Assembly: GCA_030141605.1 (NCBI GenBank)
Contig: JAQGDQ010002375.1
Coordinates: forward strand, 124,001 to 188,000
Reading direction: 5' to 3'
Source: Tubiluchus corallicola
Lineage: Eukaryota > Priapulida > Priapulimorpha > Priapulimorphida > Tubiluchidae
Length of the DNA stretch: 64,000 nucleotides
Under the pieces are notes generated by a model that was given only the letters and a program-made list of their open reading frames with translations, was not told where the DNA came from and made no database searches. Within the stretch, counting starts at the first letter, position 1; each line of letters opens with the position of its first letter. A program made the translations under genes and the position numbers. Below, piece by piece: positions 17,199 to 50,165 of the stretch.

Positions 17199-17286
17199 CT
17201 ACCGCTTCTTTAGTTCCTCATCCAGCCATTCCATGTTTTGCTCACCTAGACGTGACAGCAACTTTGAAAGTGCTATGTTGTACGGC
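17199..17286 (-). CDS. NDST: NDST terminal coding exon
   Basis: The 88-base exon completes Arg845 and encodes [16 protein letters not shown], then a short end finishing KKR and TAG. It matches the conserved NDST C-terminus. Acceptor TTTATTTCAG|G. Confidence 0.96.
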
Positions 17287-20200
17287 CTGAAATAAATGCA
17301 GCAACAATCAACTTCTGAGAAACACTAACTCAACTTACACAAACAACTAAATCATCATCCAAGTGCTCATTTGTCTGTTTGTTACACTTATGCTTGTCAA
17401 TTCGTAACTTCATTACCATAGATAATAGTTTTTGGATATTGGTAAAAAAAAATGTGTTAAAAGCACAGTCAAGGCTCTTGGAAAGTTAAGCTTATTTTAA
17501 TATTTAAGAAAAATGCTAGAAAATTGCATCAGCAAAATTTTGATGACAGCCTCGTGTAATTAGTAAAATCAATTTAAAATCGTGATCACTTCACACTTAT
17601 GTGGGCTCACTTAGGACCAAAAGTGATGTAATTCGGTTACCAGGCAATATAAACGCCTATCCCCAGATGTTTGAACAAACATCTTGCAGCTGCGGTTACT
17701 ATTATCAACTATAAACAATCCAAAACGTTAAATGAGAGATTATTAATATCATTTTTTTGCTGTTAATAAATCCCATTGCCTCTTATTCAAAGAAAACCAA
17801 TTACTGATAATAATACAATAATCTTCAACTCAGCTAGTTAATGCCGACAATGTAAAAGAAGGATTATTCTAACAACCTAAAACTGAGCTCTACAAGCTAG
17901 GTAACACACCCGGCACCTACTATATGATCGCAGGCTCGCAGAATTTCATGCTTATCTGCAATTAGAATATACATAGTACTTATGCATTTTAAGATATATA
18001 TCTACGGATTAAAACTATGTAAGAACTCAGAAGTTGTTGCTACGTAATCCGATGACTAATTTTCACATAAACACAATTAAACAGAAAAATTTAATCAACT
18101 AGAATAGTGGAACTTCTGAGTGAACTGCAGAAGTTTTGTTATGCCTTTTGCACTGTCCACCTGCTTATATTATTTTTTTCAAATATGCCCACAACAAGGA
18201 TAAGAATGATTTAAATTTCTTTCGGACTTCTGAGCAAGGCATTTTATATGTGTATATTATGAGGTAATTTCAATATTTTTAATTGTATATATAATAATAA
18301 TCTTTATTTAAAGATGGCTATTGGGTGACCAATTAACATTAGCTCGAAGAATTATTATCACCGGTTGTAAATAGCACCTACAACTACATAACAGAGACTA
18401 TTATTACCCCACTTTTACCCTAAATACCATGCACCAGGCAGAGCAACAGCAGGTACCACTTTTAAAGATTTAGGTATGGCCCGGCCGCTGTATCAAACTC
18501 ACGACCTCCCAGACAGAAAATGGACACGTTACCACTAGCTAAACTGTCTGGTCAAAACTCCTTTGATGCCCACTCATTCAAAACACTTTATACCACTAAA
18601 CAATGACATTTGATTCATCCAGTAAGCAGTACAATACAATCAGACAACCAGCGCATGCAATTCACAGCAGATCTATGACCAGTTACGCAAAAAAATCAGT
18701 TAAAGACAGTTTGCCATATCTTCTGAGAACTGAGAATTACAAATAACTATACTAACAAAAGTTCAACCATCGAATTACCAGTTATTTTAAGCTTTGCATT
18801 CAAATACATTCATGTCTTTGGTATAGGGTGGCACAGCTCGGTGGTAGCGTGCTCGTTTCGCACCAGGGAGGTCGCAGGTTCAACTCCCAACCGAGTCATA
18901 CCAAGGACTTAAAAAATGGTACCACTGGTTCTTCGACCAAGCACACGGAATTATCGAAGTAACATGGGGTACTAATAATCAGGACCACCTTAGAAATAAG
19001 TATTGAGTTACTTAAGGTGTTATACCTGGAATAAGTCCTGAACGAAATTATTATTGTCATTATTATAAATACAGGCCCTACAAATTTCTAGGAAGCTAGC
19101 ATATAGTTCAGAATATATCACAGAACATATTGTAATTTACGTTTCAGTATACTTCAATATATCGTATCATTACCTATAATAATTAGACAAGAATTTTTCT
19201 GCACGTTGTTCCATGGGCGGATACATGCGACCCTTGCTCCGCCCAAGACATTTTGTATGGTCATCATGTACCACCTGACAGTAAAACCCCTTCTTTGGAT
19301 CATACCTATAATTAACAACAAAACACACACACCTGTAATTAACAATAAAACACACACACCTATTAATTAACAACAAACACACACATTGATTGAATAGGTA
19401 TAATCTGTTCCTAAACATCTGCTAAATTGGTGCTTTAGCTACTGAATGTTAGTTTTTGGAAAAAATGGTTTGTCGGCGGAAAAGCTAGTATTACTTACTA
19501 CTCATATACTAATATACATACTTGAGGTATTTCTCATAAGAAAAATATGGCTTGGTTTTCAAGAAGCGCTGCACTCGCTCCATGCTTCGAACTGGGTTAA
19601 CTTTTAACTGCTCCCCGTCCAAAATCAGCAACTACAAAAACAAAAATACGTCACTAAAATAGGCAATATACAATTCTCTTTGGTAAAAAAGCACAGAAAT
19701 TATCTATAGAATATCACAAATACTTAAAATGAATGTTGCAAAACTATAGGCTTTCAATCATAACGTTTATTTTATGCCTTTTACAGTACAGTATGGTGAC
19801 AGATGCCTTTTTTAGCTTTGCCGACATTATTTCTTTGACTGCGAAAAGCTTCAGTGAAAATATTTAATTTATAATAATTATTTTGAATAATATTAATGAT
19901 TTTACTTTCAGTGTACATTTTCAACAGGTGCCAAAAACCTAGAGCAGAAAATTATGTATGTGCGTGCCTATCAAATAGAAATTGTTGTTATCCAATTATT
20001 TTTGAGATAATTCCACATCCAAAGCAAAATAGCGTAAATATTAAATCATCAAAGAAGCAAACGACCAGACAAAAAAGAATTTAAAAATTATTCATCAATT
20101 ACCAGGTAGTAGGCATACTATTAAAATTGAGGCAATGGTCACACACTACCCTTTAATAGGCACAGTTTAAACAAAATTATTAATTCTTTTACCATGTAAC

Positions 20201-23200
20201 TCAACCTAAAGCCAGAAAAACACTAAACAGAAAACAAGAAATTTGGCATCCATGTGCGCTAGAAAAAAATAAAAAACAGAAACGGACAACAAAAATATTG
20301 TTTTGTGGAACCTTTTCTACAACAAGCACTGCTTGATTAGCGAAACAGAAAGAAGTGTTTGCCTAACATGAAAACTGTTGTTCAATAAAACACTAAGCAA
20401 CTGCAATGCGACAGCCAACCAATGACGAGTTACGCGTGATTGAAAAAAAATAGCAGCTTGTATTGTGGCTACTATAAAATTCAATTTTATGTATGTTTTT
20501 CTCTCTCGTGTACGAGGAGATGAATATCTGCACACGTGTGCAGCACAGAAAACACAAAAGAACCGCAAAACAAGTTGAAATAAATTTGACTGGCATTCTA
20601 TGGCTGGTACAGAAACAAAGCTACACTCAGACTACACTAAGCTTAAGCTAAATTCTCAACTGACAGAAGCAGCTATGAGGTTACTTACCTGATGAGGTGG
20701 ATAATAAGCCAGCCAACGTTCTAGATGTTGTGCGTACATTCCCGGACCTAGACAACGATTGCGAAGATCGCGTACAACTCTGGATGCTGTTTCATCAGCT
20801 GACACAATGGTGTAGAAAGAGTTGTTTAATGCAACGGGATCGCTGTGAGCTCTTTGGTGCTGTAGAAAGAAAGTATCGTACTTGATGTAATGTTGCATTA
20901 ACTCTTTCCTAACATACAAATTGTTTTGGCAGTGGTGTATAAAACAATCGATAATCTTCATTTTGTGCCACAAGAGATAAAAGTAATTTTTTGAAAGAGA
21001 ATTTGATTTCTAGTGCTGCACATGTTTATAAAAAATCCGAAGGAAATTTTTCTGATAATCCAAATCCCTCACCAAATCCAGTTAGTGTCCGTTTCTGCTA
21101 AAAGTTATACAGCGCTCTTTTCTGGGCAAATAGTTAAAAAACTCACTTAAATCAGATAAGCAATGCAGCTTTACAGCTGTTCAATACATCTGTACAGCTG
21201 CAGATATTAACTTACTATGAAATTCACAATGCAAGTGAACAGAACGACGACGAATTAGCAGTTATTGTGCAGTAAGTGAAAAACACATTTTCTGCCAGCC
21301 TGCTACTACAAATACTGTGCAATAAGTTAAATAAATCATTGCTATTCCAAGCAGAAAACTCAAAATAAGAAAATACTGCATGAAAAAAGTTGTTTTTACA
21401 TTGAATACTTATACGTTGGCAACACATTGCCCAAGTTTTCTAGCAGTAGGAAGCTGCAGTATAATGTTTTCACTTTCACCATCACTAGTAAAACACAGGT
21501 ATAACAGGTAAATGGCTATACTGGTCAGAAAATAGACAAATTAGTACTGCTTGTTCTGCTTGTAACCCTAATCCTAGACCTAACTCTAACCCTAACGAAA
21601 TTTTTTTATGTAATACCTACAATTATTAAAGAAATTTAATACATGCCTGGCATGTCTAGTCAGTGATTTAATAAAAAACTGAATACGAATTAGCATACAA
21701 CTATATTTAATAAACGATATAAATTGATACTAGAAATATTTCAGATACATTAATCAGCACTAAGCAAAAAAACTACAAACTTTTCAAATCAATAGACACC
21801 ATTTACACCACATCTGGAAACCTGAGTGCACTTCGGCTTTCAGGTGTTTTTCCTCTACCATTTAACTCAGTCTGGGATGGCCAGATGTACAGCACCACAT
21901 GAATAACAATAAGCAATGAATGACAATAAAATGAAAACAATGCACGTTACCTGCAGTCACTTGAATGTACATACCTGGTACCAAGAGTAAGCTCTTCTAG
22001 CTGGATTGATGAGTATTGTGATTATCTTAGCATGAGGTAACAATGCGTAAGCCCGACTAGGCACGATGTCTTTATCGAAATATGTAGCGCTTTTCTCAAA
22101 CAAATAAATGTGTGGTGTTGAGTTGATCTGCGGAGAAGGAAAGTTGTCCATGTACCTGTTAAAAGTAAAAAACAGGAGAAAATGAAAAAAAGAGAAACAA
22201 ATAAAAATGCACTGTTACCTGAGTACAAAGTAATCAGCACGTGTAGCACCAACAACTTTGGAGATAAGGCTTTTGAAAATAAAACTAAAACACTCAATGA
22301 ATATACAGCAATAAGAAACGTGAGGCTTTTATGAAGCTTAACAACCCATGAACTATTATTCAAATTTACCAATTATTACAAATTCCAAAAGAATGAATTT
22401 CTTTTCACTGGAGAAGCCATATGTCTTGGTAAAGAACTTTAAATATTTAAAGTTGGATTAAATCAGTATAGCACTAGCAAGGATTTTAAGATGTTAAAGA
22501 AGCATTCCATTTTAAAATGAAATATTCCCATTAATCCATTAATTCTATAAATGTTTGAGGTACAATTTTTGCAGATGTATTAGCTTAAAAACCATTGCTA
22601 CTATACCAAAGAATAAGCAAAAGCAAACAGTTTGCTTCACATGTACTGAAAAGGTTTTTTATTGCACAAGGTGACATAACACTATCATGACCCGAGTTTC
22701 TATAATTGGGCATAAACGGCAAATATCTATAACAAGTAAATGTCTAGTTCAGGTGGTTAATAATAATTAGTGTGTGGCACATCACATCACATGACAACAT
22801 TAAATTCTATTGCAACAAAGATTACAGAAATGTTTATTTTAGGGGGCATAATCTTTGACTTTAAAAATTCCCAAAATGCACTGGTTTTTGAAGTTTGCAC
22901 AACTAAATGTTTAATCATTTCAGTAAAACGCAAAACAAATTATAATTTTGTTGGTGTCAAATAGTGCTGGGTCTGATTAATCAATTAAATCAATTATAAA
23001 TCGATTTGGGCTTTGTTTCTGATCCTCAATGATTTTTCCAGTAGTAGATGCCTATCGATTATATTATCAATTGATCATGTTCAACTTATTTTTTTGGAAA
23101 ATTTACAAAAATCGTACGATAAATACAATCATCATTGCAGTATAATCAAGTAATATGGTACTTGAAAAGTGATTATAATCGGTTATCAAATCGGTATTTG

Positions 23201-26200
23201 TATCTCATTATGAGAATGAACCACTTTTCCACCACTAGTGTGAACACTAATACTTTAATTAATAACAGAATTATTGCAAAATGTGCCTATTATGAAGTAT
23301 CTATTATGCAAAAGTGTGCCTTTAAGCAGTATCAGAAAAGGGGAGGAAGGGGAGGGAACCTACCAGTCTATGCCTTTATAGTAATTATTGCCATTGAAGA
23401 ACTGCACTTCCTCAAATGATGGAGTTATGAAATTGCTAAAGATCAAAGGATGCATGGAGAGGAATGTATAGAGTGCTGTGGTCCCTGTCTTCTGTGGCCC
23501 AATCACAAGAAACCTGGGTAACCTGGTACACGTCTTGTTTTTCGCCCAAATGGCTAGGTGTCGCTTGTCATCACAGGGATTCTATAAGATAAATTACAGA
23601 TGTCACAGCTACAATACTGACAGCAAAGATCATGTAAGGGTATCATTATAAATGGCTTTGATTTATTGGCTGTATTTAAAGAAAATTGAAACAATACATA
23701 CGTGAACAGCTGAAATCTTATAACGTTACTAAGTGATTGACTAACTGGTCTATAATAAAAAGCCTATATGAAAGCCTCTCACGTGAAGGCAGTCACGGTA
23801 TTAAAAATCAATAAGAAATGTAACATAACTTCATATATTGGTGGTAAAACAGGAAGTAAAACGTGCAAGGAAAAAGATGGCAAAAATTAGTTGGGGGCGG
23901 ATAATATAAGGATATGATAGATGAGATACTGAAGTGGATGATTAATGATACTCAGATATCGGCATACAAGATAAGGGTCTACGGATTTAGTAAGGCTGAA
24001 TAGTGTTTTATGGTGCACTAAAAGCTCTTGTGCTTAAAAATGGCTTTAGAACTACAAAGACTGACATAAACATTGCAAATAAAATATCGGTTAGTGACAC
24101 CTATAAAACATTTAGAGAAAAAAATGTTTCAAAAACTAGAAAGATTCGATAACATAAAAAATTGGGGACTGCGGTAAATTGCAAAAATGTTTACAGTAGT
24201 GCAAAGAAATTGATGTGAGTTGCAAAAACATAAGATATCAAACATAAACATAAACAAACACTATTAAAAAGTATCAGCTACATCAGGGTCATTACATTCT
24301 ATTGAATTTCTGGATATAGTTCAGGCCTCCATGAACAAAAATAACCTGCATTAGTTACAACGTCAATAACAAAGGTTGTTTCTTTATGCAAGGGAATATA
24401 AAATAAGTATTAATAAATTACGATATCCATTTTAGTTCAACTGCAGGAGCGAATACTAAATCAGAAATAAGATGTTGCCCCACTAAAAAATCAACCCCCA
24501 CATGTCCATACCCCACCTACGGTCTGCTCTTGAACGCACCTGCCATACAGGATCCTCCTCATCTGGAAACATTCTGAAGTATCTATCAGCTAGCTTAACA
24601 GGAGATTCAGACAACAGCTGCAGATTCGTCCAGCATTGAGTAAACTTGATGACGTTCTCAAACGTGTAAAGAGCGAGTCGATCATTGCCGTAGTTGGACA
24701 AGTGTGTCATGAAGATGTTAATCTGTATGTGAAAAAAATCAGCTTACATGTTTACCACTACATAAAACATCTACACGACATCAGTTACAACCAGTGTTAT
24801 GTAGTAATGAGTAACTTTGCTTTTTTAAAAATCAGTATTTTTACAGTAACACAGATGTCACTTCAGTCCTCAATGCACATTTTGCTCAAAGAACTGGCTA
24901 ACGCTATTTTCTATGTTCACTTGGTTAGTGAGGTCATTTTTGTGGCTATGCAAGAAAAAAGAATGCCTGCAATTTCTTTAAATATGCAGTTTAAAATGGA
25001 ACTTTCAAATTAAACCAGTTAAAATGCATTCAGAATTAGAAACTTGGTATTTTTTTAGCTCTATGAAGGTTAGTGGTTTGAAGAAATAGGAAAAACATAA
25101 AATAATGTTAAGAAAGCAGTAGTGACTAATAGAAAAAGCAATATGTAAAGAGCGACTTGTTGTATTTTTTCGATCAAAAAACACATTAACATTTGCATTG
25201 CACTAACATGTTAACTAACAATTTACTTAACAAATAACAAAGGTACTAGTAACAAACCCAAAATCGAGTAAATAACAATGATAAATGACGTAAACTGAAG
25301 GTGGCATTCAGAGTACAAAGATAATATACACACTCAATGTATCTGATTCATTTTTATATAAAAGAAAGGGGCTGTTTCACCAGTTTACATCAATGTTAGT
25401 CACTATGTTCAAGACAGCACTAACTTTTCGTCCATCACATTATTTTCAGGTGAAATTTATGCAACAAAAAAATCCACCGATTTAGGTTTCAATTTGCCAC
25501 AATGTATTGATGATTTAAACATGACCTGGCAAATGAGTCTAGAAAACATTACACAGTTGAAAGACAGTTATAAATTCACAATATAAAACTACTTCTCAAC
25601 TCTCAATATTGCTTCCAGAGCATGCAGCACAACTGAAGGATAACTATGCAACTGTAAAAACGATTTGCAGGTTTGTCCACACAGAAACATTGCCCCAACA
25701 CCCAACAAACTTGTAAACCTTTATCCTGGGTAGAGGCATTTGTAAAGGTCCACGTTATCATTTAACATCGTTTCCCTCTTTCCAACGAGCTATAAATTTC
25801 CCTCCAAAACTCCGAACAAGTAACGATAAAGCATTTTTCTACACAGCATTCCTCTAGGAATGGCAGGTAAAAAATCTCCAAAACTGGCCATTTTATGCTT
25901 TTATTCACTACTGCAATGCTGCATAAAAAAATGCTCTAGCGGCACCTGGCGAGGGTCTTGGAGGGAAATTTATAGCTCTTAGGAAGGAGGAAAAATGCAG
26001 CTACACTGCGATGTGGCTCTCTATTACAAATGCCTCTAATAGGATGAAGGATCACCAGTTAATATGGGGGAACATTTTTTCTAGATGGCCCTGTATGACA
26101 ATGACAACTTGTTTCCTTCGTTCTTGAAAGGTCATCGTTTTCAAGCGGAAAAACAATATTTCAGTTGACAAATTTTCATTGTAAGCGGATTTGTCGCAAC

Positions 26201-28229
26201 AGCTCCCAGTGACAGAATTTATTCCCAGAGTTCGAAAATGAAAACATTTCACAGCTCTTTGCAATCAATAATACATACAGGATTATTGAGTATTGTCTGG
26301 AAGAGTTCACCACCGTGAATACTGGCTTGTAGTTTGTGCTTTCCTCCAGGATACCGATCCAGGAAAACCGTGTGTGTAAACAATCCACATAGTTGCCGGG
26401 GTAACACCTGTAAGTAAGTAATTAACTAACTAATGTAGACAAATTAGCTCTGCTGTAAGCAATAACATCAGTTGGGAAGATAAGTCTGAATGCTAAAGAA
26501 GCTCGTCACACTAAAGCAGAGACTTTTCACTTTTCTGGAGTAAAGAACTCAATAATATTACTGTAAGGAAAGAATTAAATAGTGTAAGAATTTTGAATCT
26601 GCAAGGGAGATGTGATGAGAATTTTTTATTTTTACACAGCTATAATATTTTACATAAAACACATTATAAATAATGTAAATTGCAGTAAACTCGAGAAAGG
26701 GCATGCTAAATCGTTGTACAAAAGCAAAATGCTAAAAACAAAAAACAGCGGTATTTACCACTAAACTTCAATATCCATTTTCTACATTTGGCTGTAGATT
26801 AAACTACACCTATAACTGCGAGTGAGTGTGAACATCATACAAAGTGATTAATCTACGTTACTAATGTCGTAGATGTTCTTAAGCAGGGTTAACATTACAT
26901 TGATGAATGTACAAGAATAATGAAACTGAAACTCAGCCACTACATCCTTGAAGCCTCGCTAAAATTCTTACAGACTTATGAAGCTAAGAGGCTCTTACTC
27001 GTTTGTACAGAAAAACTTTGTTTAACTTTTCATTACTAAATTTAGTTCATATCACTCACAAATGCATAAAGCTATTATGCAGAATGCCAAGAGTACATGC
27101 ATAAGGCTTTCAAAAAAAGCAAAAATCACCCCACCTTAATGCCTCTATGTATGAAGCCTCTACGAGCCCTCGCAGGGTGAAGATGAGGATATTCTTCCGT
27201 GCTTGTCACTTGCACACCCCAAATCTGCAAGCGAAAGAAACGAATCTTTATATTTATATCCATTCATCAGCTTGTAAACTTGATCATTAAAGGAAACTGA
27301 GTTGATTTTCCATAGCCTACCCCAATTTGAAGTATTGTAAAAATGTACATTTTAACACCAATAATACTACAAAAGCACATCACAAACAAACACATCTGAA
27401 TCTGAATTGAGATGTACTGCACGTTTTTTGTGCAATGCATTTCCAAAATGCAGGCGCTACTGCCCATCTAACTAATGAATGGTGCAATGCATGCAACAGC
27501 GAAAAACTAGAAGTGCGAATGCGAACTTACGTTTGTGTGGTAATAATTTCTTCATGTAAATCATTCTTGAAAAAATAGCAAGTTCCTTTCAATATTTTAA
27601 AGACTAGATTGTTTTGACCTACAGTTTAAGATATGTCCACTTTTCCCTTAAGTTTATACGCCTAATATGCACTGTAATGTAGTACATACACATGAGACAC
27701 TATTACAGCCATTCAAAAAATGTGGCAGTTCAAAAAATCCTTGTTTGGCTTTTTAGATAGTACGTAAGTAAACAGACTGAAAAAATGAAACGAAAGTAAT
27801 AACAAAACAATAGGAATAAACTGCAAGTCTGGCTCATGATCCAGGCTTAGTTACTTGCATTGTTTTTCACATGTCACTAATTTCACTCCATTAATTACCT
27901 TCTTCCATGCATCGTACAACGGTTCATGCACGGGGTACACGCCAGAATGATGTGGTGCTACTGAATATCCTGTCTGTGCACTTATGTTATGTTTCTAAAT
28001 TAAAAATAACATAAATTATAACCAGTAGATCAATGCATTATTTAAAAATACATGTAGTAATGTAATGCTATTTTTAAAGTAAAAATGAAACAATCAGTTA
28101 CTGGAAAGCCATTACAATCCAAATATTCTGGAAAAATATAATAAATGGTAGAATAATGTAGCATATTTATTATATTTACTTTTTCTATGTTATACTTCAA
28201 AATGAGTAAGAGGTATCACACATAACTAA

Positions 28230-28270
<41 letters not shown>

Positions 28271-31200
28271 TTAAAAGTCAAATGTTTATTATGAAATAGT
28301 CAAGCTAATATTATTACTACACTTGCAGAAAAAGAATCTTATCATATCTAGTCAACTATGCCAGCTAACCGACTAACATGAAGTGAAAGAATATCTAACG
28401 GCATAAAAGCCCAGGTGCCGAGATGTTCTCACCTTTGCGAACGCCACATTCAAGTTCATCTCGTTTTCCAAGCTCTCCCTTGTAAGGATCTGATGTGGCT
28501 GACTGTGGCTCCACATGTGGCCAAACCAAGAAAACTTCGACGAGTGTGCTAATAATAATTGGAGAAATAAAAAATATAACTAACCGCTGCCAAGGAAAGA
28601 TTAACAGGCATGGTAATTAGACAAATTTGGTTCTTTGTTTTCATTGTGTCATTGTTTCTTCTTTCATTGTTTTGCTGTTCAGTTTGCCTGCAAACTCGTG
28701 TGCTTCTGTGGTAGAAGGATTTTGAGGAAAGACAAGGATGTTTTCCAGAAATGGTACAGGAACAAGGCCAGGTTAGTTATATAAATAAAGTAAAAATACC
28801 TACCTTTTAAGAGCTAATTACAGTCGCATGAGTTTCAATGCTTCATCTTTGCTTCCCAAAGCATTTTTGTTCTATCTTATATATATAGATACTTTTACGT
28901 ATCTCGTTATACATATTACAGTATTACTAGTACTATTTATAGTGTCGTTGTTGCTATATAAAAAAATTATTTATAGGTACTAACAGAATCTATTTTAGCT
29001 ATAACATTTACTTGTGCCTACATACTGCAAAACTTGGCTACAACTTAGTAATTAGTATCAGAACATATTTTCTACTAGTTGAGGAAATGCAAAAAATGAT
29101 CCTAAGCATTCACTTGGTTTTAGTTCAATTCAAAGAACTAATAAGTAAAATAAACAAAATTGATTGACCAAACTTGCTTAAAAAATAATGCATTTCAATG
29201 AAACAAAAAGTCAAATGCATAGTCTAGTTTGAAATAAAAAATGAAAAAATTAATCAATTGTCAAATTTTAGGAAGAAGACTTTGAGAAAAATGTGAGCCA
29301 ACCAAGATTTGTACCCAGTACCTTGAGGTTTCTGGGAACACTGCATGAATTTTTCTATTATTTACCAGAACTCAAAATTAAAATGCACTATTCTCTTCCA
29401 AAACAAAATTGTGATTTTTAATCGTGACCTGAAGGCAATAAATTAGCACTTTAATATTTTGGAACCACGTAATGAGTGTTAGATGCAAATAAACTCTAGC
29501 CACTGTTTACATTAGTTAGGCTAAATGTCCATTATGGAAAATTTCAGTTAACATGTGTATTTGGCACAATAGCAGAATAGCAAAAACAATACTGCATGCC
29601 AATGATTACAAGAAAGCAAAGTTAGCAAACAACTTTATATTTTTTCATTTTGTGATCAGAAATTAGACCCGGTGTGAAAGCTGTTTCATCACTTTCATGC
29701 TAGAAACAAATGTATAAATTACACATCTAAGGTTGTTACAAAAATTAGCAGTAAAGCCAAGTAGTTCAATTATATTTTGAATATAGTAATTTACAGTCAT
29801 TCCCTATCCAAAGTTACTTAACTTAACTAGTCTTTGTATGGTTTGCAACAGTTCATACATGACGTCTAGCCGCCAATTCACACACAATAAATGGCTTAGT
29901 TGTTTGGGGAACTAACTATAAATTATTAATATGTACTTACATTGTAATGGGCTTCTAAAAGCTTCTCATGCAGAAATTTGTACTTTAATGCATTTCCTTC
30001 AGCATAAAGTGCTGTAATACGGAATGGAGTAAAGAAAAAACCAAATCTACATAATCTAGTTCGAATAAACTTACCTTGGCCAACGAAGTCTAGGGTGGAT
30101 ATTTGGTAAATAAAAATTACGTTCGAATTAGTACGTACCTAACGCCAAGTCGCCAATGCTAACTAGTAAAACCATACTGGATGCTGACAAAGTAACTATG
30201 CCAATATCTGCCACCAAAGCTATCTTAGCTCTAAAAAGCTAACTGAGAGTGCTGCCACCTGTAATACCTGTGCAAACTGCAGATTCTTCTTCATGTGAAT
30301 TTGGAGGGTGGAGGATTCAAGGGAGTGGGGTTTGTAATGACTCCACATGTGCGGAAACCACGTGAAGTGATCTTTATGATCTGTAAAAAAACCTCCAGCA
30401 GTTCAGGTTCCGTATTGTTTACAAATTAGTTTTAATTATCTCATAATTGCGACTGGTTAAAGTAAGGCTTAATGAAATGAACCAGAATTTAAAGCAGAGG
30501 CACTAAGGCAAGTTGTCAAGGGAATTTTTATTATCACGCCTTAACTACACCCTTCAGATGATACTCAAACAGTCAATGTATTAGCTGGCTCTCTCTGTTA
30601 CGATGTCATAGTCCAAATAATCCAAATAACAGCAGATCCAAATATTACGCTAAAAACTCAAAATTATTATATTTTTAAAACCAAACTTGACTGACATAAA
30701 AATTGTGAAAAGCCAAGACTGAACTCAAGTTTGTAACAAGGACTTTCGTTTACATCCATCATCATCTCATAAGCAACGAGTCAGGACTGCGGAGTCGGTA
30801 CATCAAACTTCTGACTCTGGCTCTGACTCCGACTCCTAGAATTTTAGAAGATCCAACTCCGACTCTGACTCCAGCTCCTAAAATTTTAGATTCAACTCTG
30901 ACTCCGACTCCAACTCGTAAAATTTTAGGAACCCCAACTCCTGCCTTTAAGTAATAGTTTGTAGCACTCTCAATATTTAGATATAGTGTCATTTTGTCAC
31001 TACTTCTTATACTCGAAAAACAATCTAGCTGCATAGACACCAATGCAAAAGCATCCCAAAATGGGACGTTATGCATAAATTCGTTCAAAGTCCAAAGTAA
31101 CTGGAGTTTGAGTTTGTTTATTTTCTACTGATTATTCCAATTCTTCTAACAATAAGTATACTCAGGACTCCTGACTCCTGTCTTAACTTTTAACAACTGC

Positions 31201-33759
31201 AACTCCGACTCCTTTAGCACTGCTGCCTCCAACTCCACAGCCCTGCCGACAGTCCTGATTTTTTCGCATTCGCTTTCCGTTGACCGATTTTGTATTCGAG
31301 TACTACGGCTTGGAGAACATCACTTTGTCACCAATTCTCTTCATTTTTTGCACTGCTAATACTTAGGCAACTGGGCAATCAATGATAAAAGTATTAAGGA
31401 ATTGTTGAGGTTTCCAGGCTGTCTATTTGTTAAACTGAGTGAAATGTCCATTTGCTAAATCATGAGCAGTATCAAATTAGCAAAAATGTTAAAGTTGAAA
31501 AAACATCCAAAAATAGAGTGCTCAATCAACAACAACAGTTTTGCAACATGTTGTAATTAATGCTACATTATTGTTGTAGTTTATGATTATTTATGTTTAA
31601 AAAACATCGAATTCTGGCTTGAGATATTAACTAATCATAATGCTGATATATTGTTTTAAGTGGGCTAGCCCTCGTGACCTCGTCTCCATAACTTAAGCAA
31701 TATAAGAACACACGCTTAAAGTAACAGCTTTGCGAAAATTGCTACTTATAATAAACAGAGCAATTTGCAGCTCAAACCATAATGAAAACAGCAATAAAAA
31801 CTCAATAAAATTTGCTTTTGTACAAGGTAAACACTGGAAAGTATATGACCAAGCTTAACTATTCAAGGAACAGCTGTTAAAGTTTAGATGCAATATAACA
31901 GGGCTCACTTAAACAAGCTAGTAAAACTGTTAGCTTAAACATTTAAAGCATTCAAGCAGATTGAGCCAAACATTTTTTTAAATACCCTCAAAAAAAGAAA
32001 AATAGTAATTGATTTGCAAGCTGTAGCTTTTAAGTTGAAAAAATGTAAAATGTGCAAAAACAAAGAAGGAAAGACTCACGTTACGCCTACATCTACATAC
32101 AATATGGTAATTCATGGGACCATTAAGTTTAACATGTCTTAATTTTTTAATTCAAATTACTATTTAAATTCATCTTCTGCTGGGCATGACTTGTGTAAAA
32201 TCTTATGCTGATGTGGAGATCAATAAAAATTCATGCAGATCTCGGCTTATTACAATGTCATGCCAAATTACCAACCCAGAGTAACTGAAATAGAGCTCTT
32301 CTGCTTTTTTTCAGGGTTTTTAGACACACGATGCAGCAGCACAGATTTTGTGCAGGTTGCCAGTCTTCTGCTGTAGGTTTAAATAAGCAAGACACCTTGT
32401 CTAGCATTAACTGGCTTTCAAACCTAGCTTCCCTGTTGAAGTAAAATTTTACCTACTATTCTTTCATAAATAAACTGAATATTCAGAGTAAAATCAATGC
32501 TGTACGATGATTTTTATATAGCACATTCATTATACCTATTTTCTGAATTGTATTATAATCACAAAACATATTATCATAATTGATGATCCTAATAAATAAT
32601 GAGTTAAATTCGCTGGTAAATCAAATCCTACCTATTAATTCATCATCTCCTCGATTCTCCTCCTCGGTACCGGCATGAAAATATTTCCCAGAGAAACCCA
32701 AGTTGAACGTGAAACCGGGAACTCTCTGGCGTATTCTTTCTTGGGTGTCAACCAAAGCCTTAAGAGAAGCAAAAAATACTCGTATTAAAGTGAAAAATAG
32801 CCTAATAGGCTTTTCTTAAGTGGGAAATGAAAGTTTGGTTGAAAAATATGAACACAAACAATGTGAAAAATATCAATGCTGTTCATGTTTTTAAAAATAA
32901 CTAGTCAATTATTCACTAACACCTGAAAGCTCTTCATTTAAATTTAAGAATTTCAGGATTTGCTATGGCTAAACACTGAAACTGATAACTAGTGAAACTT
33001 AAGCTATACTGTCAAAAATGTTATTGGATAAGTGGCTATTTTAGTAATTCATTTTAAATGAGGCATAATTTCATATTAGTTTCAGTCATTAAATTGAAAT
33101 ATAAAAAAATAGCATGTTTCGGTGGTTTTACACGTTTGCCCAAATTAGTAGATAATGTTACAAAAAGCAAAGCACACGGGTTCAAAATGAATGCAGCAAA
33201 ACGCCAATTTGAAAGTTAATTTACTGACTGCAAACCCTAATGTAGGCAAGGAGGGAACCCACAAAGGCCTGGTTAATTTTTAATCCGTCACCATGGCAAC
33301 AAAAACTACCAAACAACCGCCGGCTGTGTTGTCAGATGAAATTAATCAATTGCTGGTTATTATTTAATATCGGGAAGCAGAAAGAAAAGCATGATGAATT
33401 TACATGCACGCTAATTAGCATACGCTAATGAGCCAGTGAATTATCCTATTCTGAACGCAATGCTATGCAAGATTCTATTCAATCTTTTCCAGATGGTTTT
33501 ACCTAAAGCACAGAAACACTAGTGTTTTGAATAACTAACTGTTAAAACGTTTGAACAACTAAATTTTTATCTAAGCTTTTTTCTATTTAGTAGACTCAGT
33601 ATTTTCAATGAGGCAATAATGCCTACAAATCTGGGACACTTACATTTTAAATTTTGGGGTTTTACTCTCTAAAAAATATTCCGGGACCTGCACAAAGAAG
33701 AGAATGTTCTGTACAAAAAAATAACACGATCACAAATTCCACGTTTAATAATATTAAAC

Positions 33760-33790
<31 letters not shown>

Positions 33791-36344
33791 TCCATTCAAC
33801 TAAAGCGGTAATTGAACATTAGAAATATATTCCCAGACAGCTATGCATCACATCACAATATTAAATCAAATATTGCACTCTGCATGCTGTGCTGTATTCC
33901 AAAAAAACTATTCACGCTTAACAGTTCTGCAATTCTAATCCAAGTTTCTAACATTACTTTTCCGGATTGCCACTGCATTTTAAATTACGGACATTCGAAA
34001 GCAATAACCATTTTGCCGGTCGATGTAGTTTACGAAAACAGCCGATAACGACGTTGTGGCTGCAGAAATGATGAAAGCGAGGAAAATTAATTGAGCATCA
34101 GCCATAAACTGATGAAAATATCAGAAAAATTGCCGTGTGACGTAAATGCTAAAGTCTGATAGCTTACATTCGGGTAATTTGAGTGGACTGCAAATGAAAA
34201 ATCATTTACCAATTTAGGTCTGGAATCTCAAAATTAATTTTTTAGTTTCCATCAAATTGTGCAGTCAAGCATTGTGAAACATTGGTAGCAATATTGACTA
34301 AGCTTTGCTTTAGGGGTAAAAAATTAAATAACATACATGAGAAAGCTTACATGGAACTACTGAATTTGGTTTGTCAACCATAAGGGATGAAGTCTGGACA
34401 ACCTTGACTACTGGGAAATACAGTGGCCAAGTTATCTAAGGCATATGCCTCATAAGTAGAATGTCGCTGGTTCAAATCCAGACTGTATTCCAACTTTTGC
34501 AGATTTCCTATTTTTCTAGATTGATCAAAATCTAATCTTAAAATTTAGTTTAATAGTAATCTTGGCATTACAATTATACTAACTGAGTTTAAATAACATT
34601 CACTGTCTACATGTAATTGTAATGTCTGACAGTTTGGACATCAAAATTCCATTTAAAAATGAAATTTACGAAATAAGAAAGATCAATTCGCCAAAAACAT
34701 GTATGTATCGTGCAGCATTCTGAATCCAACTGATACTAACCCGTACATCACTGGAGGTCATTCTCACTCCTTTCTCGCCAACAAAAATGTCGTCTACATC
34801 AACCAAGATGTATCTGAAACAATTACATGCAGGATTAATTTTTAGCACATCCTTACATTTACTGTAAGATAGTAACACTGTACACTAATGGCGCGTTCAG
34901 ACTAGTGAGTTTTCTGTCGCGATTTTTCTCTCTAACATCAAACTCGCAAATGTGAACTATCGAGCTACTATTTGCAAGTTATTTTAAACTCACTGACAGT
35001 TGCTGCGAGTTGATTTCCAGCAAGCTCCTGCCAGGTGTGAATGCCTCGGTGACTGTCAACTCGCGCTTACTCTCGGAGAGTAGCTCACAGCAAGTTTTGT
35101 TCTCTAAACTGAATACGCTTGCGAGTTACTTGAAGAGTTTTTTGGTGAGTTAACTAGACAAGAAAACTCGCTAGTCTGAATACACCATGAGAAATTCTTG
35201 TATACCTACAGTATATGCCACATATCAGTCACCAAGTCATGGAACTTTTCAACTTCCAATTGAACTTTTCAATTTCAAATTTTATAACTAATTTTGTCCA
35301 ATTGCCAGTTGGCTCCAGTCACAGAAATTTGAATGTGGCAGCTCATAACTACAGTACAGTACAGAAACAAATATTCATTTTAAAGTAATATCCTTTGCAA
35401 AAAGTCAGTCTCTGTTTAGCAGGATTTTCTTACCTGACAAATGGTGTTGACAGCTTTCCGTGCGACAAATAAGAAATTGCATCTAGAAATATTGGGCGAT
35501 GGAGCCAAAACTTGAAACCCTGCCCAAAAAAGATCCTACGCACACCGTCGAAGAATCCTTTGTCTTCTAACACTGTAGTCAAAAGTTCTTCAGTGCCATC
35601 AGTGTCCACATAGTGCTTAGAACGAGCAAATGCCACTGGCTCAAATGTCGAGTGATTAGTTTTGAAGACCGTCCACCTCCCGTGTTCGGGAATGGACCCA
35701 TGCTGAACTTCACCAGCACGCGTAATTCGCAGCACTTGTGAAAATGTGTTCAGCTCATAATCTCGAATAGGAACGTTCGTGTATACAGATAATGGATAGC
35801 CACGCAGTCGTGATCCGATAATTGTTTGCTCCCGATATGGGGCAAAATACAGGATACCTACATCATAATCTAGGCAATATTTATCTAACAAGTCTCTATT
35901 CCACTTATTCAAGCTAAAATAATGGTCCATGTTTTCAAACACAATAACAGCATATCTGCCTTTGTCTAAGTTAGTTAATACTGGCAAACTTTTACCCGCG
36001 ACATCCATCTTAAAGCGGAAACGATTCCACTCCAGTATCATCTTGATCTCCTGACCGAGCGAAGAGAGTGGAGTCTCTGTAAACACGAGCACTTTCGCAT
36101 CCACCCTCAGTTTGGCATTCGAATGGTGAGAGTTTGGCGGACGGGTTGACATCTGCGGACTGGTATTGCATTTGAATGTGGCTTCTAAGGGCACACGATT
36201 CCGAGATGTTTGGTAGATCAGCACCGCTGGCAGCACTGTGCTTAATATAAGCACAAGCACTACTGCCCCCTTGAGGGTAAAATGTTTGGTGATACGGCGA
36301 CATGTCATCTTCAACTGCAAACAACCGGGTATTCGACAGAACAT
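17199..36344 (-). CDS. NDST: Heparan sulfate N-deacetylase/N-sulfotransferase (complete spliced gene)
   Basis: This is the bifunctional Golgi enzyme that removes acetyl groups from GlcNAc in nascent heparan sulfate and then N-sulfates the freed amine using PAPS. The segments, in transcript order, are 36344-35434, 34813-34741, 32758-32632, then either 30380-30268 or 28548-28433, then 27994-27899, 27224-27135, 26407-26279, 24722-24540, 23581-23364, 22155-21975, 20859-20689, 19631-19522, 19305-19174 and 17286-17199. All introns are GT-AG and phases match throughout. The product is 873 aa (874 with the alternative exon). It has a type II anchor at about residues 26-44, the deacetylase motif VDVDDIFVG near 308, HMWSH near 381-385, PRQLCG near 474, a 5'-PAPS loop with Lys605, His708, Lys825 and a Cys810/Cys820 pair. 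These match Lys614, His716, Lys833 and Cys818/Cys828 of human NDST1 as I recall them. The first ATG follows an in-frame TGA six codons upstream and has A at -3. Confidence 0.97.
18290..18553 (-). mobile_element. tRNA-derived SINE, family A, copy 2 (NDST intron)
   Basis: On the minus strand, GACCAGACAGTTTAGCTAGT and GGTAACG form the A-box side, GGGAGGTCGTGAGTTTGATA the B-box side, then the CTGCTGTTGCTCTGCCTGG body and an AAATAAAGATTATTATT tail. It is the sister of the copy at 3876-4115. Confidence 0.75.
18821..19070 (+). mobile_element. tRNA-derived SINE, family B (NDST intron)
   Basis: The plus strand has a clear tRNA-like head: A box TGGCACAGCTCGGTGGTAG, then CAGGTTCAACTCCC as B box with pairing ends. 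A unique body follows (AATCAGGACCACCTTAGAAA) and a tail of ATTATTATTGTCATTATTAT. Confidence 0.8.
19174..19305 (-). CDS. NDST: NDST exon 13 (disulfide and catalytic Lys)
   Basis: The 132-base exon encodes [30 protein letters not shown] and EKFLSNYY. Cys810 and Cys820 match the sulfotransferase disulfide, and Lys825 matches catalytic Lys833. The canonical start at 19305 gives the family spacing. Two further in-frame acceptors lie 27 and 54 bases upstream. Donor ATAG|GTAATG, phase 2. Confidence 0.96.
19306..19376 (-). repeat. 27-bp tandem repeat forming three in-frame 3' splice sites
   Basis: In transcript sense the intron end has copies of a T/GT-rich 27-base unit ending in TTAATAG, TTACAG and TTATAG. 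Exon starts at 19305, 19332 or 19359 are all possible. The extra 27 or 54 bases are in frame without a stop and would insert 9 (CVCFVVNYR) or 18 residues between Lys801 and Tyr802. Confidence 0.8.
19522..19631 (-). CDS. NDST: NDST exon 12
   Basis: The 110-base exon encodes [30 protein letters not shown] and SYEKYL plus the first two bases of Lys801. Acceptor TTTTTGTAG|TTG, donor CTCAA|GTATGT. It is followed by the shortest intron of the gene (216 bases). Confidence 0.96.
20689..20859 (-). CDS. NDST: NDST exon 11
   Basis: The 171-base, phase 0-0 exon encodes [36 protein letters not shown] and AYYPPHQ. His708 aligns with catalytic His716 of human NDST1. Acceptor TTTCTACAG|CAC, donor CAG|GTAAGT. 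Confidence 0.97.
21564..21598. repeat. Telomere-like CCCTAA tract
   Basis: Degenerate CCTAA units (TAACCCTAATCC, CTCTAACCCTAACG) lie within the intron between NDST exons 10 and 11. Confidence 0.7.
21975..22155 (-). CDS. NDST: NDST exon 10 (3'-phosphate binding strand)
   Basis: The 181-base exon encodes [38 protein letters not shown]. The last part is the 3'-phosphoadenosine-binding region of the sulfotransferase. The family usually has Asp where this protein has the first Arg of the ARRAY segment. Acceptor TTTTAACAG|G, donor CAG|GTATGT. Confidence 0.96.
22962..23237. mobile_element. hAT-type MITE in NDST intron 9-10
   Basis: The ends TAGTGCTGG and CCACCACTA are inverted, and the flanks GTGTCAAA and GTGTGAAC look like a decayed 8-bp target-site duplication. 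No coding capacity. Confidence 0.6.
23364..23581 (-). CDS. NDST: NDST exon 9 (5'-PAPS binding loop)
   Basis: The 218-base exon encodes [12 protein letters not shown], then [18 protein letters not shown] with catalytic Lys605 in the phosphosulfate-binding loop, then [18 protein letters not shown]. Acceptor CTTATAG|AAT, donor GACTG|GTAGGT. The final Trp codon is split, out phase 2. Confidence 0.97.
24540..24722 (-). CDS. NDST: NDST exon 8 (deacetylase/sulfotransferase hinge)
   Basis: The 183-base exon encodes 61 residues including [24 protein letters not shown], and DEEDPVWQ at the end, the linker between the two catalytic domains. Acceptor ACATACAG|ATT, donor CAG|GTGCGT. Phase 0-0. Confidence 0.96.
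25723..26045. mobile_element. MITE-like hairpin element in NDST intron 7-8
   Basis: Left arm ATCCTGGGTAGAGGCATTTG is inverted at the right as CAAATGCCTCTAATAGGAT. An inner arm GAGCTATAAATTTCCCTCCA is inverted as GGAGGGAAATTTATAGCTC. The whole element can fold as a long imperfect hairpin. Confidence 0.75.
26279..26407 (-). CDS. NDST: NDST exon 7 (PRQxCGLFTHT motif)
   Basis: The 129-base exon encodes [20 protein letters not shown], then [13 protein letters not shown]. Cys477 corresponds to the Cys in the family PRQTCG motif, which has been linked to deacetylase sensitivity to alkylation. Acceptor TTACAG|GTG, donor CCT|GTATGT. Phase 0-0. Confidence 0.96.
27135..27224 (-). CDS. NDST: NDST exon 6
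   Basis: The 90-base, phase 0-0 exon encodes [20 protein letters not shown] then [10 protein letters not shown], colinear with vertebrate NDST. Acceptor TTGCAG|ATT, donor AAG|GTGGGG. Confidence 0.96.
27297..27650. repeat. Dispersed repeat family D, copy C (internally deleted)
   Basis: It shares GTACATTTTAACACCAATAA, CCCATCTAACTAA and GTTTGTGTGGT..ATTCTTGAAAAAA, in the same order, with the copy at 37503-38090. The middle portion is missing. Confidence 0.7.
27899..27994 (-). CDS. NDST: NDST exon 5
   Basis: The 96-base, phase 0-0 exon encodes 32 residues containing [20 protein letters not shown] and AWKK, a very conserved NDST deacetylase segment. Acceptor TTTAG|AAA, donor AAG|GTAATT. If both exon 4 copies are skipped, this exon is read as Glu-Thr-stop. 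Confidence 0.96.
28234..28266. repeat. (TA)n microsatellite in the 438-bp intron after exon 4b
   Basis: A pure TA tract of about 33 bases lies between alternative exon 4b and exon 5, about 170 bases downstream of the 4b donor. Confidence 0.95.
28433..28548 (-). CDS. NDST: NDST alternative exon 4b (second HMWSH segment)
   Basis: This 116-base exon (acceptor ATTATTAG, donor AAG|GTGAGA) completes Ala371 and encodes 38 residues including [14 protein letters not shown] and NVAFAK. It aligns to the same segment as the exon at 30268-30380, without gaps to the vertebrate NDST segment, and has the same in and out phases. It keeps HMWSH but replaces the preceding Pro with Gly. Its second half (Glu-Ser-Leu and Leu-Asn positions) resembles vertebrate NDST at some sites where 4a does not. 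The intron from 4a is 1719 bases, and the intron to exon 5 is only 438 bases and contains a (TA)n tract. A degenerate relic is unlikely because frame, motif and splice sites are all intact. Confidence 0.9.
29941..30175 (-). other. Three phase-compatible mini-exon candidates in an NDST intron
   Basis: In transcript sense, just after exon 4a, an ATG at 30175 opens 12 codons ending at donor TTAG|GTACGT (30139). Acceptor CCCTAG precedes a 15-base segment (30089-30075) with donor AAG|GTAAGT. A T-rich acceptor TTACAG precedes 71 bases (30011-29941) ending in donor AAT|GTAAGT. Spliced, they read in one frame: [17 protein letters not shown], then [20 protein letters not shown] and four more residues. 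The implied introns are only 49 and 63 bases. I do not recognise the peptide. It may be chance, a nested gene or alternative NDST segments. Confidence 0.25.
30268..30380 (-). CDS. NDST: NDST alternative exon 4a (HMWSH segment)
   Basis: This 113-base exon (acceptor TTTTTTTACAG, donor CAG|GTATTA) completes Asp371 and encodes 37 residues including [14 protein letters not shown] and NLQFAQ. His381 and His385 of the HxxxH motif correspond to the deacetylase metal ligands His389 and His393 of human NDST1 (from memory). The Pro before the motif is the family consensus. In phase is 1 and out phase is 0, the same as the copy at 28433-28548. I see 16 identities over 38 aligned positions between the two copies. 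Joining 4a to 4b shifts frame and meets TGA after 30 codons. Confidence 0.94.
30782..31245. mobile_element. hAT-like MITE with GGAGTCGG-type subrepeats
   Basis: Ends CAGGACTGCGGAGTCGG and, inverted, CAGGGCTGTGGAGTTGG bracket repeated GACTCCGACTC and CCTAAAATTTTAG motifs. It sits in the intron between exons 3 and 4a. The 108-codon minus-strand ORF here is repeat-derived. Confidence 0.65.
32632..32758 (-). CDS. NDST: NDST exon 3
   Basis: The 127-base exon encodes [16 protein letters not shown], then [18 protein letters not shown] and a GDDELI end, matching the NDST segment after the acidic motif. Acceptor CTTAAG|GCT and donor ATAG|GTAGGA. It ends with one base of a split codon (G), so the following exon must begin with two bases. 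This phase sets the mutually exclusive logic of the two exon 4 copies. Confidence 0.95.
33760..33790. repeat. (AAT)n microsatellite
   Basis: About ten AAT triplets in the intron between NDST exons 2 and 3. Confidence 0.95.
34417..34490 (+). tRNA. tRNA-like sequence, CAT anticodon position (likely pseudogene or SINE head)
   Basis: The 74 bases fold as a cloverleaf: acceptor AATACAG/CTGTATT (7 of 7), D stem GCC/GGC, anticodon loop CTCATAA, T arm GCTGG-TTCAAAT-CCAGA (4 of 5), with a T4 tract at 34495. The anticodon stem has one mismatch, and the D loop lacks the usual GG pair. The D-arm region resembles a tRNA-Leu or Ser type. A functional tRNA is doubtful. Confidence 0.35.
34741..34813 (-). 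CDS. NDST: NDST exon 2 (deacetylase DDIFVG motif)
   Basis: The 73-base exon completes the split Arg304 codon and encodes [18 protein letters not shown] and six more residues. Acceptor TTTCAG|A and donor CGG|GTTAGT. Asp311/Asp312 correspond to the conserved acidic pair of the NDST deacetylase domain (Asp319/Asp320 in human numbering, from memory), thought to be part of the metal site. The exon is in phase 2 and out phase 0. Confidence 0.96.
34889..35187. mobile_element. 299-bp MITE in NDST intron 1-2
   Basis: Left end TGGCGCGTTCAGACTAGTGA is inverted at the right (CTCGCTAGTCTGAATACACCA). The interior has several AACTCGC/GCGAGTT motifs on both strands. Flanks TAA and TGA may be a decayed 3-bp target duplication, as in Harbinger-type elements. 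It fills nearly half of a 620-base intron. Confidence 0.7.
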
Positions 36345-36660: not shown

Positions 36661-37502
36661 CAGAGTATTCATAAGTCGTCAAGTCGGTAATAAAACAAAT
36701 AGTTACAATGATTAATTCAAACAACAGTAAATGCTCTGGCGACCTAGGAAGCGAACTTCTGTAAGGCCATCAGTGTTAAAGACAATAGCAATGCAAACAT
36801 TTTCCATAAAAACATGTGCAAACTCATTATGAAACTAAGAGTACAGATCAGTAAATTTACTCAAATACTAAAGCAATTTGTGTGAAAGCACTGTTCTCAT
36901 CAAAGTTCGATAAGTTCTTTGGCTACTTAACTTGCATAAATTCTAAATAACTGTGTGTTTTCACTGTGTTTATTACTGTATTTTCCTTTACTTGAAAAAT
37001 AGGCTAGGCTCTTGAAACATAATGCAGTAAAACAAAATAGTATAATATAACCAAATAAACGAATATGAATCCGGAAACTGCTAAGCAAACAAAAAAATAT
37101 TTTCCCATCTAATGTGGCTAGTACCGTCTTTGATGCCTAAACTTTAAAAGTATCTTGCAACTTAAACTGCCGTTTTTAAATGAAATCTTTGACGCAATTA
37201 TACGAAAATTCACAAGCATCTATGTCCACAACAGATTCACTGTCTCTTGACATTTCTAAAGTTAATTTAAACAGGATTTCTTGCGATTCATAAAGCTTCC
37301 CTGAACTTTCTAGCAAGTCTTCTAAAATAAATCACGTCACGCCACCAACAGGGATAATCTAATCGCACTTTTAGAAAAAAAACTACACAAGCTTTCCGCA
37401 CACACAGAGGAAAACAGTTTTCTCTCTGTTCAAAAGTAAGCAAGCTGTCAAGGATGGTGATGAGTTACACCAGCATAAAATAAAGAAAGCATGGTTGCCT
37501 GA

Positions 37503-38090
37503 AAACAGGATGATTTTTCACATCCTACCCACTCTGAAGTGCAGTAAAAAGTACACATTTTAACACCAATAATACTGCAAATGCATTTCTAATAATTAAA
37601 CAATAGATTAAAATCTTAGTTAACGGCGAGAAAGCCTAACCAATGATGACATCACAAATGAACATAATTTTCAACAGCAAAAAAATTCCAAGAGTGTGTT
37701 GCACGTGTTTGCAAACGCGAAAATTGAAGTACACTGCTACTGAACAACATTCAATGTGTTATACTGAAACTCGGCAGAGTTTAATATAAAAATTCAAATT
37801 TAAAATTTACCGCTGTCATGCACAAGCTGTTGAAAGCGCGCAATTCTTCACAAACGAACATCTTTGAACTGAGAGGTACAGCATCTGTTTTTAGTTACGT
37901 GTTTCTGAAGGAGCTAGTTCCCATCTAACTAACGAAAAACATGTAACAGCGAAGAACTAGCTGCCAACGCGAAATTGCGTTTGTGTGGTGATAATTGGTC
38001 ATTCTTGAAAAAAAAAACAGTATGTTCCCTTTCAATGTTTTAAAGAGTAAACTGTTTTGACCTAGGGTTTAAGAATGGGACCGGTTTTCC
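37503..38090. repeat. Dispersed repeat family D, copy A (longest)
   Basis: It begins AACAGGATGATTTTTCA and includes CATTTTAACACCAATAATAC, TGAACATAATTTTCAACAGC, GTGTTGCACGTGT, AAATTCAAATTTAAAATTTA and a TTTGACCTAGGGTTTAAG end. Copies at 53767-54260 and 27297-27650 share these blocks in order. No terminal inverted repeats, tRNA head or coding region were found. Confidence 0.75.
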
Positions 38091-38659
38091 TTTAATTGCA
38101 TTTCGTAATTATAAGAACTTCTAAGCTTTTGCGCATACGCGAGTTTGCAGATTACATTCGATCTTCGGTGATATTAACAGCTGCGCGCCCAAACTAATTA
38201 AAAATATGAAATCAGACGCATCTGGAACATAAAAATATCTTAAAGCGCCGACACGTAACCGACGTTTATCGTCCGAATTTTGTTGACCAATAAAATCATG
38301 TGTCACGGTAAACCAGCCAGTATCCCCAATGAAAATGTAGTGTTATACCTGTGACAAGGACATAAATTTCTGTTAGTAATTTTTGTGAGCTCATTAAAAT
38401 GGTTATCAACAGTGACCCTGCATGGAAAAATGAAACAAACAATTATTATCAATCATTTCCAAATTGTAATTGTGAAACCAAGAAATTGAAAAAGTTGAAA
38501 CAATGGCTTCAAGCACCATCTGTCACTAGTTTTAAATCGTGTTTCAGGAGTACCATAAGTCCATAACCGATTCTATTCTAGGGATCAATTCTAGGTCCCT
38601 GTGACTTTAAAAATGACTCTGATGTACGGTATACTTATACTTAAATTTTTTTGTTTCCG

Positions 38660-48716: not shown

Positions 48717-50165
48717 TCAGGGTTTGTTGTCAATGCTGATCACACAGCAAATCGCTTAAAGGCAGATCTTAGAATAATTGAAAACTGGGCCAAACGTTGG
48801 TTGGTTAAATTTAATCTTAATAAGACCGAAGTCATGCTTTTCTCCCGTAAATCCAATGCTCCTCAATATCCTACTCTATATTTATCTAATACTCACTGAA
48901 AACTGTAAATGTTCACAAACATTTAGGTATCCATCTTACATCTGACCTGAATTGGAACTATCACGTCTCAAAAATGGTAGACAAAGCATTTTTAAAGCTA
49001 AACAACTTTCGACGCGTGTCAGTTAATATGCCCAGAGCTACGCGTGAACGATTATTCATTACGACTATTCTCCCTGCCATCGAATATGGTAACGTAGTAT
49101 GGTCAGGATGCAGTGAAAACAGTATACGTTTGTTAGAAAATATTCAGCTAACTGCTGCTAGAATCTGTTCTGGCGATATGTTTCGATCTTCCCCTGCAAG
49201 TATCTTGTCTGATAGCGGCTACACTAAATTAGTGACACGCTTCCATTATCATCGCCTATGTCCTTTTTTCAAAATAATCAATGACTTACTTAGTGCCCCA
49301 CTATTTAAGTGCAATTCTGCCGCCAAAGGTAAACGAAGTTACCCCCTATTATATACGCAGTGGTACTAAATACAGAAATTTTAATTGCCGTTCTGTTAGC
49401 TGTGAAAAATCGTTTTTCATATCGACCATTAACATGTGGAACAACTTACCACAGAACATTCGTGAAATTACATCCATTTCACAGTTCAAACAAGAGCTCA
49501 AATCTCATTTAAGTTTTTCGTTGCGTAAGAAACATTTTTCATTTGGTAAAGCTCCAATATCAGTGCATCATACGCGCATGAGAATCGGATTTTCTCAGCT
49601 AAACTATGACCTTTTCTCTAAAGGCTGTAAAGATAATAACGGTAATCCAATATTGCCGAATTGTAACTGTGGATTTCGATTTGAGTCTGTTGAACACTTT
49701 TTGTTGCCCTGCCCATTGCATCAACTAGCTATGGTAGTTATGTTTGATAAATTTAATGCAATACTTCTGCCCGAAAGCCTTAATATAGCTGCCTTAGGAA
49801 AAATGATCTGTTGAAGTTGTTATTATTCGGAAAAGACGAATTTAACTATGTTACTAACTGTAAAATATTCCAATGTATACATGACTTTATATTACGTACT
49901 AAACGCTTCCAGTAGTTTCTAACTCATATAAAATGCATCGTTCTTAAATAATCGTACATTAATATTTACTAACCGTCATTTTCTACTAATGTCTAATGTA
50001 TCACTGTAGTAAAACTTTAGTATACTAAAGCATACTAAAAACTAAGTATAGTCTATTCTTACTGTAAATGTTCTTGTAAACAATGTATAAAGTCTGTTGT
50101 GGTGAGGATCCTAAATCATGTTGTACAAACTGTCTGATCCAATCCTAAATAAATTATGTTTAAAC
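48717..50165 (+). pseudogene. 5'-truncated, frameshifted non-LTR retrotransposon
   Basis: The remnant starts after the RT catalytic region: NRLKADLRIIENWAKRWLVK, NKTEVMLFSRKS, then a stop and frame change near 48895. HLGIHLTSDLNWNYHVSKM and the ERLFITTILPAIEYGNVVW block follow, and a second frame change near 49340. The C-terminal part has FISTINMWNNLP and a terminal NCNCGF..VEHFLLPCPLH domain, ending at 49812. A 3' UTR follows with AATAAA at 50147. This is typical of Jockey/CR1-like LINEs; the clade is not certain. It is not functional. Confidence 0.85.

Follow-up and report, generated by a model that had tools for sequence, protein, structure and literature searches.

The window analyzed here, a stretch of 64,000 nucleotides from the priapulid Tubiluchus corallicola (contig JAQGDQ010002375.1, positions 124,001 to 188,000), carries on its minus strand a complete gene of the NDST family, the family of vertebrate NDST1-4 and Drosophila sulfateless, and its domains and catalytic residues match those of human NDST1. 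Exon position 4 of this gene is occupied twice, by exon 4a (30268..30380, 113 nt) and exon 4b (28433..28548, 116 nt), and we consider it highly probable that both copies are used, as mutually exclusive exons. Exon 4 would have been tandemly duplicated long ago, with both copies persisting as functional coding exons, and each mRNA would run from exon 3 through either 4a or 4b to exon 5. Either way, translation would give a complete enzyme with both functions, its deacetylase domain containing whichever version of the segment around H389 and H393 (human NDST1 numbering) had been spliced in.

The duplicated exon 4 and the constraint on both copies

Mutually exclusive exons are recognized in a genome as homologous neighboring internal exons of the same phase and similar length, and in transcripts by junction reads that connect each exon past the other, with none linking the two unless that link shifts the frame (PMC5740500). 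Exons 4a and 4b have the genomic features of such a pair: they are homologous, internal and adjacent, separated by an intron of 1719 nt, and both enter in phase 1, leave in phase 0, are bordered by AG and GT, and encode HMWSH (PHMWSH in 4a, the first copy, and GHMWSH in 4b, the second). An earlier note on this DNA had given these positions, lengths, phases and motifs, all of which proved accurate, and had put the shared residues at about 16 of 38; we measure 17 of 38 aligned residues, with one gap. The alignment of the two copies has a z of 10.8 against 300 shuffles. Furthermore, in a PF12062 search of the 343.5 Mb assembly, each passes the cut-off as a match of its own (E 9.8e-7 for 4a and 9.5e-8 for 4b). 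When the 15 exons of the gene are searched against the window (E ≤ 0.1), 4a and 4b are the only ones to match each other inside the gene, and exon 6 gives one weak match outside it (E 0.029). The flanks of the two copies (about 500 nt) share only short matches, the longest of which (23 nt) lies inside the exon.

The reading frame imposes a one-of-two rule on these exons, as the earlier note had also argued. Either copy alone gives a full open reading frame; inclusion of both ends at a TGA that follows 30 codons of 4b, and omission of both leads to Glu-Thr-TAA at the start of exon 5. The lengths of 4a and 4b are not divisible by three and their joint inclusion shifts the frame, as in mutually exclusive tandem exons elsewhere; among human mutually exclusive clusters, lengths not divisible by three are found in 377 (60%) (PMC5740500). 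Frame shift together with mRNA decay would filter out the wrong products.

The two copies differ at 53 of 114 nucleotides (46%; 18, 13 and 22 by codon position) and use the same codon at 9 of the 17 residues that they have in common, which points to an old duplication. Despite this age, 12 residues that are invariant in exon 4 of human NDST1 and of two further genes of this genome (on contigs C2337 and C1850, described below) are kept in full by each copy, 12/12 in 4a and 12/12 in 4b, and a MAFFT alignment recovers the same 12 columns. Under a neutral simulation with equal substitution rates and no indels, drift from 4b to equal divergence produced no stop-free descendant with all 12 residues in 200,000 runs (best 10, mean 2.4), and drift from 4a produced none in 100,000 (best 9 of 12). 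Since 19% of the neutral descendants of 4b are stop-free, an open frame of such length means little, and it is the conserved residues that carry the argument; 0.2% of these descendants shared at least 17 residues. The view that the duplication is old and that both copies are constrained, already put forward from inspection of the letters, is thus upheld by the divergence, the shuffles, the neutral simulation and the invariant residues.

The fit of the two copies to the family is nearly the same. The Pfam deacetylase domain scores 344.2 bits with 4a and 344.4 bits with 4b, compared with 373.1 bits for the human segment and 337.9 bits for the C2337 segment placed in the same context; by this measure, 4a and 4b are about equally distant from the family average. 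When the residue before HMWSH is exchanged, 4a loses 2.5 bits (P to G) and 4b rises by 2.4 bits (G to P), so that P before the motif is the preference of the family. Identity to human is 17/38 for 4a and 17/39 for 4b, and such near-equal values speak against either copy being a decaying derivative of its partner. The flanking exons 2, 3 and 5-8 reach 150/233, indicating that the exon 4 segment varies faster than its neighbors in both copies.

The NDST gene and its relatives in the genome

The gene extends from 36308 to 17199 and encodes 861 amino acids with 4a and 862 with 4b. Fourteen coding exon positions were placed, which makes 15 exons with position 4 double; at the intron borders AG precedes and GT follows the exons, and the joined frame stays open to the stop codon. 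All three NDST domains lie in a single chain in the full 4a isoform, each scoring above its Pfam cut-off: the N-terminal domain (HSNSD_N, PF25119, 255.8 bits), the deacetylase (HSNSD-CE, PF12062, 340.5 bits) and the sulfotransferase (Sulfotransfer_1, PF00685, 120.9 bits). The 4b isoform was scored for the deacetylase domain only. By alignment, D319, D320, H389, H393 and H529 are present in both isoforms. The gene model also contains VIGPQKTGT, with the GPQK lysine, and LPRQLC, with the LPRQ-x-C cysteine, in agreement with the motifs GPQK and LPRQTC named for NDST (PMC4359090).

All exons lie on the minus strand. Exon 1 (35434..36308) holds the start codon, the HSNSD_N domain, a GT donor and, as judged by eye, a membrane anchor; exon 2 (34741..34813) carries the DD that aligns to human D319/D320, and exon 3 (32632..32758) leaves in phase 1. 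Downstream of the pair, exon 5 (27899..27994), in phase 0, is the common partner of 4a and 4b, followed by exon 6 (27135..27224), exon 7 (26279..26407) with LPRQLC, exon 8 (24540..24722) with the MTH that aligns to human H529, and exon 9 (23364..23581) with the GPQK motif of the sulfotransferase. Exons 10 (21975..22155), 11 (20689..20859), 12 (19522..19631), 13 (19174..19305) and 14 (17199..17286, including the stop codon) complete the model. Within intron 2, a tRNA-Met is predicted on the plus strand (34417-34491). A search for relatives of exon 1 among viral contigs gave none; three stretches matched a pattern and none was related.

The PF12062 search of the assembly returned 25 rows, on C1338 (which contains the window), C1677, C2337, C1850 and C1232, and copies of exon 4 were counted from this search and from fetched stretches of the paralogs. 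C1677 was considered as an independent allele and rejected: the reverse complement of C1677:891000-920999 is identical to window 12689-42688 (0 differences in 30,000), and such a duplicate contig is uninformative on constraint. Counting it once with C1338 leaves four NDST-like loci, the window gene and three more. The earlier note had set exon choice in this gene against the four NDST genes of vertebrates; the contrast needs correction, since the three further loci indicate that this genome uses gene duplication as well. Every invertebrate examined in PMC4359090 has a single Ndst, whereas four loci match the deacetylase family here, which makes the presence of several NDST loci noteworthy in itself.

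The genes on C2337 and C1850 have a single exon 4, which is 113 nt long, keeps the phase seen in the window gene and encodes HTWTH instead of HMWSH, and they carry GPTK where the window gene has GPQK; on contig C1232, no match to exon 4 was found. The longer blastn matches between C2337 and C1850 show 10 to 30% difference, so that the two look like paralogs, not alleles. Their exon 4 is 4b-like, with identities of 23/38 (C2337) and 24/38 (C1850) to 4b versus 14/38 and 15/38 to 4a. An exon tree places 4b together with exon 4 of the paralogs (support 75/81); a clade of 4a and 4b is not rejected (p-AU 0.099), the tree resting on 39 columns with 4a and human flagged as long branches. Over the flanking exons, C2337 shares 144/233 residues with the window gene and 118/233 with human. 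The 4b-like paralogs, together with C2337 flanks that are nearer to the window gene than to human, favor, without proving, an order in which the exon was duplicated before the genes split and 4a would then have been lost in the paralogs. A search for a remnant of a 4a-type exon over exons 3 to 5 of C2337 and C1850 gave nothing beyond the single exon 4 except short, weak matches with an E of 0.8 at best. A tandem arrangement of exons 2-3 in C1850 (121000-131000) was also considered and set aside as a probable assembly artefact: the near-identical blocks (0.98 to 1.00 in 250-base bins) flank a 4966-base N run.

Several other elements were seen along the way. A dispersed repeat of up to about 600 bases occurs in the window at 37501-38091, 53767-54164 and 27423-27628, the last piece sitting in intron 5 of the NDST gene, and also in an NDST intron on C1850, at 69-74% identity. 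A 29-base tandem unit occupies window 51135-52536 (47.9 copies, 88% matches), with long open frames running across the array, and frames at 48890-49814 resemble, by eye, the end of the reverse transcriptase open reading frame of a retrotransposon. Elsewhere in the assembly there are Hox-type homeodomain frames, one with a UbdA-like peptide, and their signature peptides suggest a protostome; COX1 gave no match in the assembly.

The probably exchanged segment and the proposed use of the two exons

In human NDST1, the catalytic metal is coordinated by D320, H389 and H393, and turnover is lost when any of these three, D319 or H529 is replaced by alanine (PMC10864358). The HMWSH of 4a and that of 4b both align to human H389-H393, so that the HxxxH histidines, which the earlier note had named as metal ligands, correspond to the ligands that act with D320 (PMC10864358). 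Around this motif the copies diverge. Just before H389, 4a has P, like human NDST1, and 4b has G, like the paralogs. In the stretch that follows H393, 4a is shorter than 4b by one residue, and much of the segment downstream also differs; overall, 21 of the 38 aligned residues are different. Because HMWSH is common to both copies while the residues around it vary, the swap would keep the metal ligands and change their surroundings. From the fold of such enzymes, the exon 4 stretch is presumably a loop plus a helix near the substrate. With less certainty than for the exons themselves, we infer that the exchange may alter deacetylation, through the fit of the substrate around the metal and not through loss of the metal site.

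These same residues bear on a variant of the explanation given above, one that is compatible with mutually exclusive exons: one of the two copies is used in each transcript, the isoforms are equivalent, and the choice serves as expression control through decay of transcripts that include both copies or skip both. The truncation of wrong products by the frame, the equal family scores and the catalytic residues common to both copies would all suit such a role. The extent of the replacement, which includes the P/G exchange beside H389 and the shortened stretch after H393, speaks for isoforms that are not interchangeable, and we regard equivalence of the two as rather unlikely, if still a serious contender.

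For mutually exclusive use of 4a and 4b, the means of exclusion would lie in the frame and in regulation. The splice sites listed, donors and acceptors alike, resemble ordinary GT-AG sites of the U2 type rather than the U12 consensus. Given these ordinary GT sites and the spacing of 1719 nt, blocking by steric hindrance or by U12 incompatibility is unlikely, and frame and regulation therefore remain. A faint lead to the latter is a perfect 14-nt inverted repeat with one arm in intron 3 (32225..32238) and its partner in the 4a-4b intron (29341..29354), picked among the matches listed (25 of 38 repeat pairs), whose pairing would loop 4a out; a pairing of at least 14 nt also turns up in 6 of 300 Markov controls. 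The other two intron pairs contain no exact pairing of at least 10 nt with at least 4 G/C. The hexamer TGCATG, an Rbfox-type motif, was considered as a splice-control element and dropped as uninformative, as it occurs once in each of two introns and not in the third.

Several points weigh against mutually exclusive use. No clear splice-control element was found in the introns compared here, and 4a has the donor with the poorer fit (CAG/GTATTA; 6 of 9 consensus positions matched, versus 8 of 9 for 4b), so that 4a may be the weaker exon. Constraint was judged by a simple neutral model without indels rather than by dN/dS across species, and the copies were examined in one species. Both exons, and their use, are read from genomic sequence alone, and the two paralogs whose exon 4 is readable each have a single copy. 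These last two points would also suit a gene that uses only one copy, the other being an intact-looking exon that is silent or only very rarely included. Such an exon, however, would stand at 46% nucleotide divergence and still have kept its frame, its splice sites on both sides and 12/12 invariant residues, an outcome that the neutral simulation does not reproduce, while scoring the same as its partner for the domain; we hold a single used copy to be improbable. An assembly error that misplaced one copy from another NDST gene into the intron could appeal to the duplicated contigs C1338/C1677, the gap-flanking repeat in C1850 and the C1232 gene, on whose contig exon 4 was not found, but the window has no N runs, the two copies are correct in strand, order and phase, and blastn of the C1232 stretch against the window gives no match near the exon pair, which makes such an error very improbable. 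One-of-two splicing of 4a and 4b thus remains the probable reading of the gene.

Comparison with known systems and significance

Mutually exclusive exons are already known as a kind. Ketohexokinase, an enzyme unrelated to NDST, exists as isozymes A and C of different substrate affinity, which arise from mutually exclusive exons 3a and 3c by experimentally demonstrated splicing. OGDH 4a/4b is another example of mutually exclusive tandem exons (PMC7969005). The window gene differs from these sets in that the segment to be swapped would carry two of the ligands of the catalytic metal in an enzyme acting on heparan sulfate, and in that the pair is known here from genes, not transcripts. Among heparan sulfate-modifying enzymes, 6-OST2S is named in PMC4359090 as a splice variant of 6-O-sulfotransferase 2, not as an exchange of paired exons. 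The fly sfl isoform RA, as presented in PMC7318944, is defined by a 37-bp exon 2 in the 5′ untranslated region rather than by a change at the active site. No description of mutually exclusive exons in NDST appeared among the titles and starts of abstracts listed or in text from PMC4359090 and PMC7318944, a literature mostly without subscription papers, so that absence there is not proof; the arrangement in NDST is apparently new.

The placement of N-sulfated domains along heparan sulfate is determined largely by NDST. When fly sfl is replaced by mouse Ndst1 or Ndst2, rescue differs regardless of total sulfation (PMC11011245), which suggests that the kind of NDST matters for tissue patterning. 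Tentatively, and with somewhat less than even confidence, we propose that the window gene may act as a one-gene switch for heparan sulfate patterning, giving two enzymes that would differ in the rate or spacing of deacetylation. On this proposal, the exon duplication would predate the separation from the other NDST genes of this animal, and the two readable paralogs would have retained the 4b type alone. If 4a and 4b are indeed exchanged, an active-site segment is swapped while the rest of the protein stays constant, a natural experiment on how residues near the metal set rate, spacing and substrate preference. An invertebrate could then diversify NDST by exon choice besides gene duplication.
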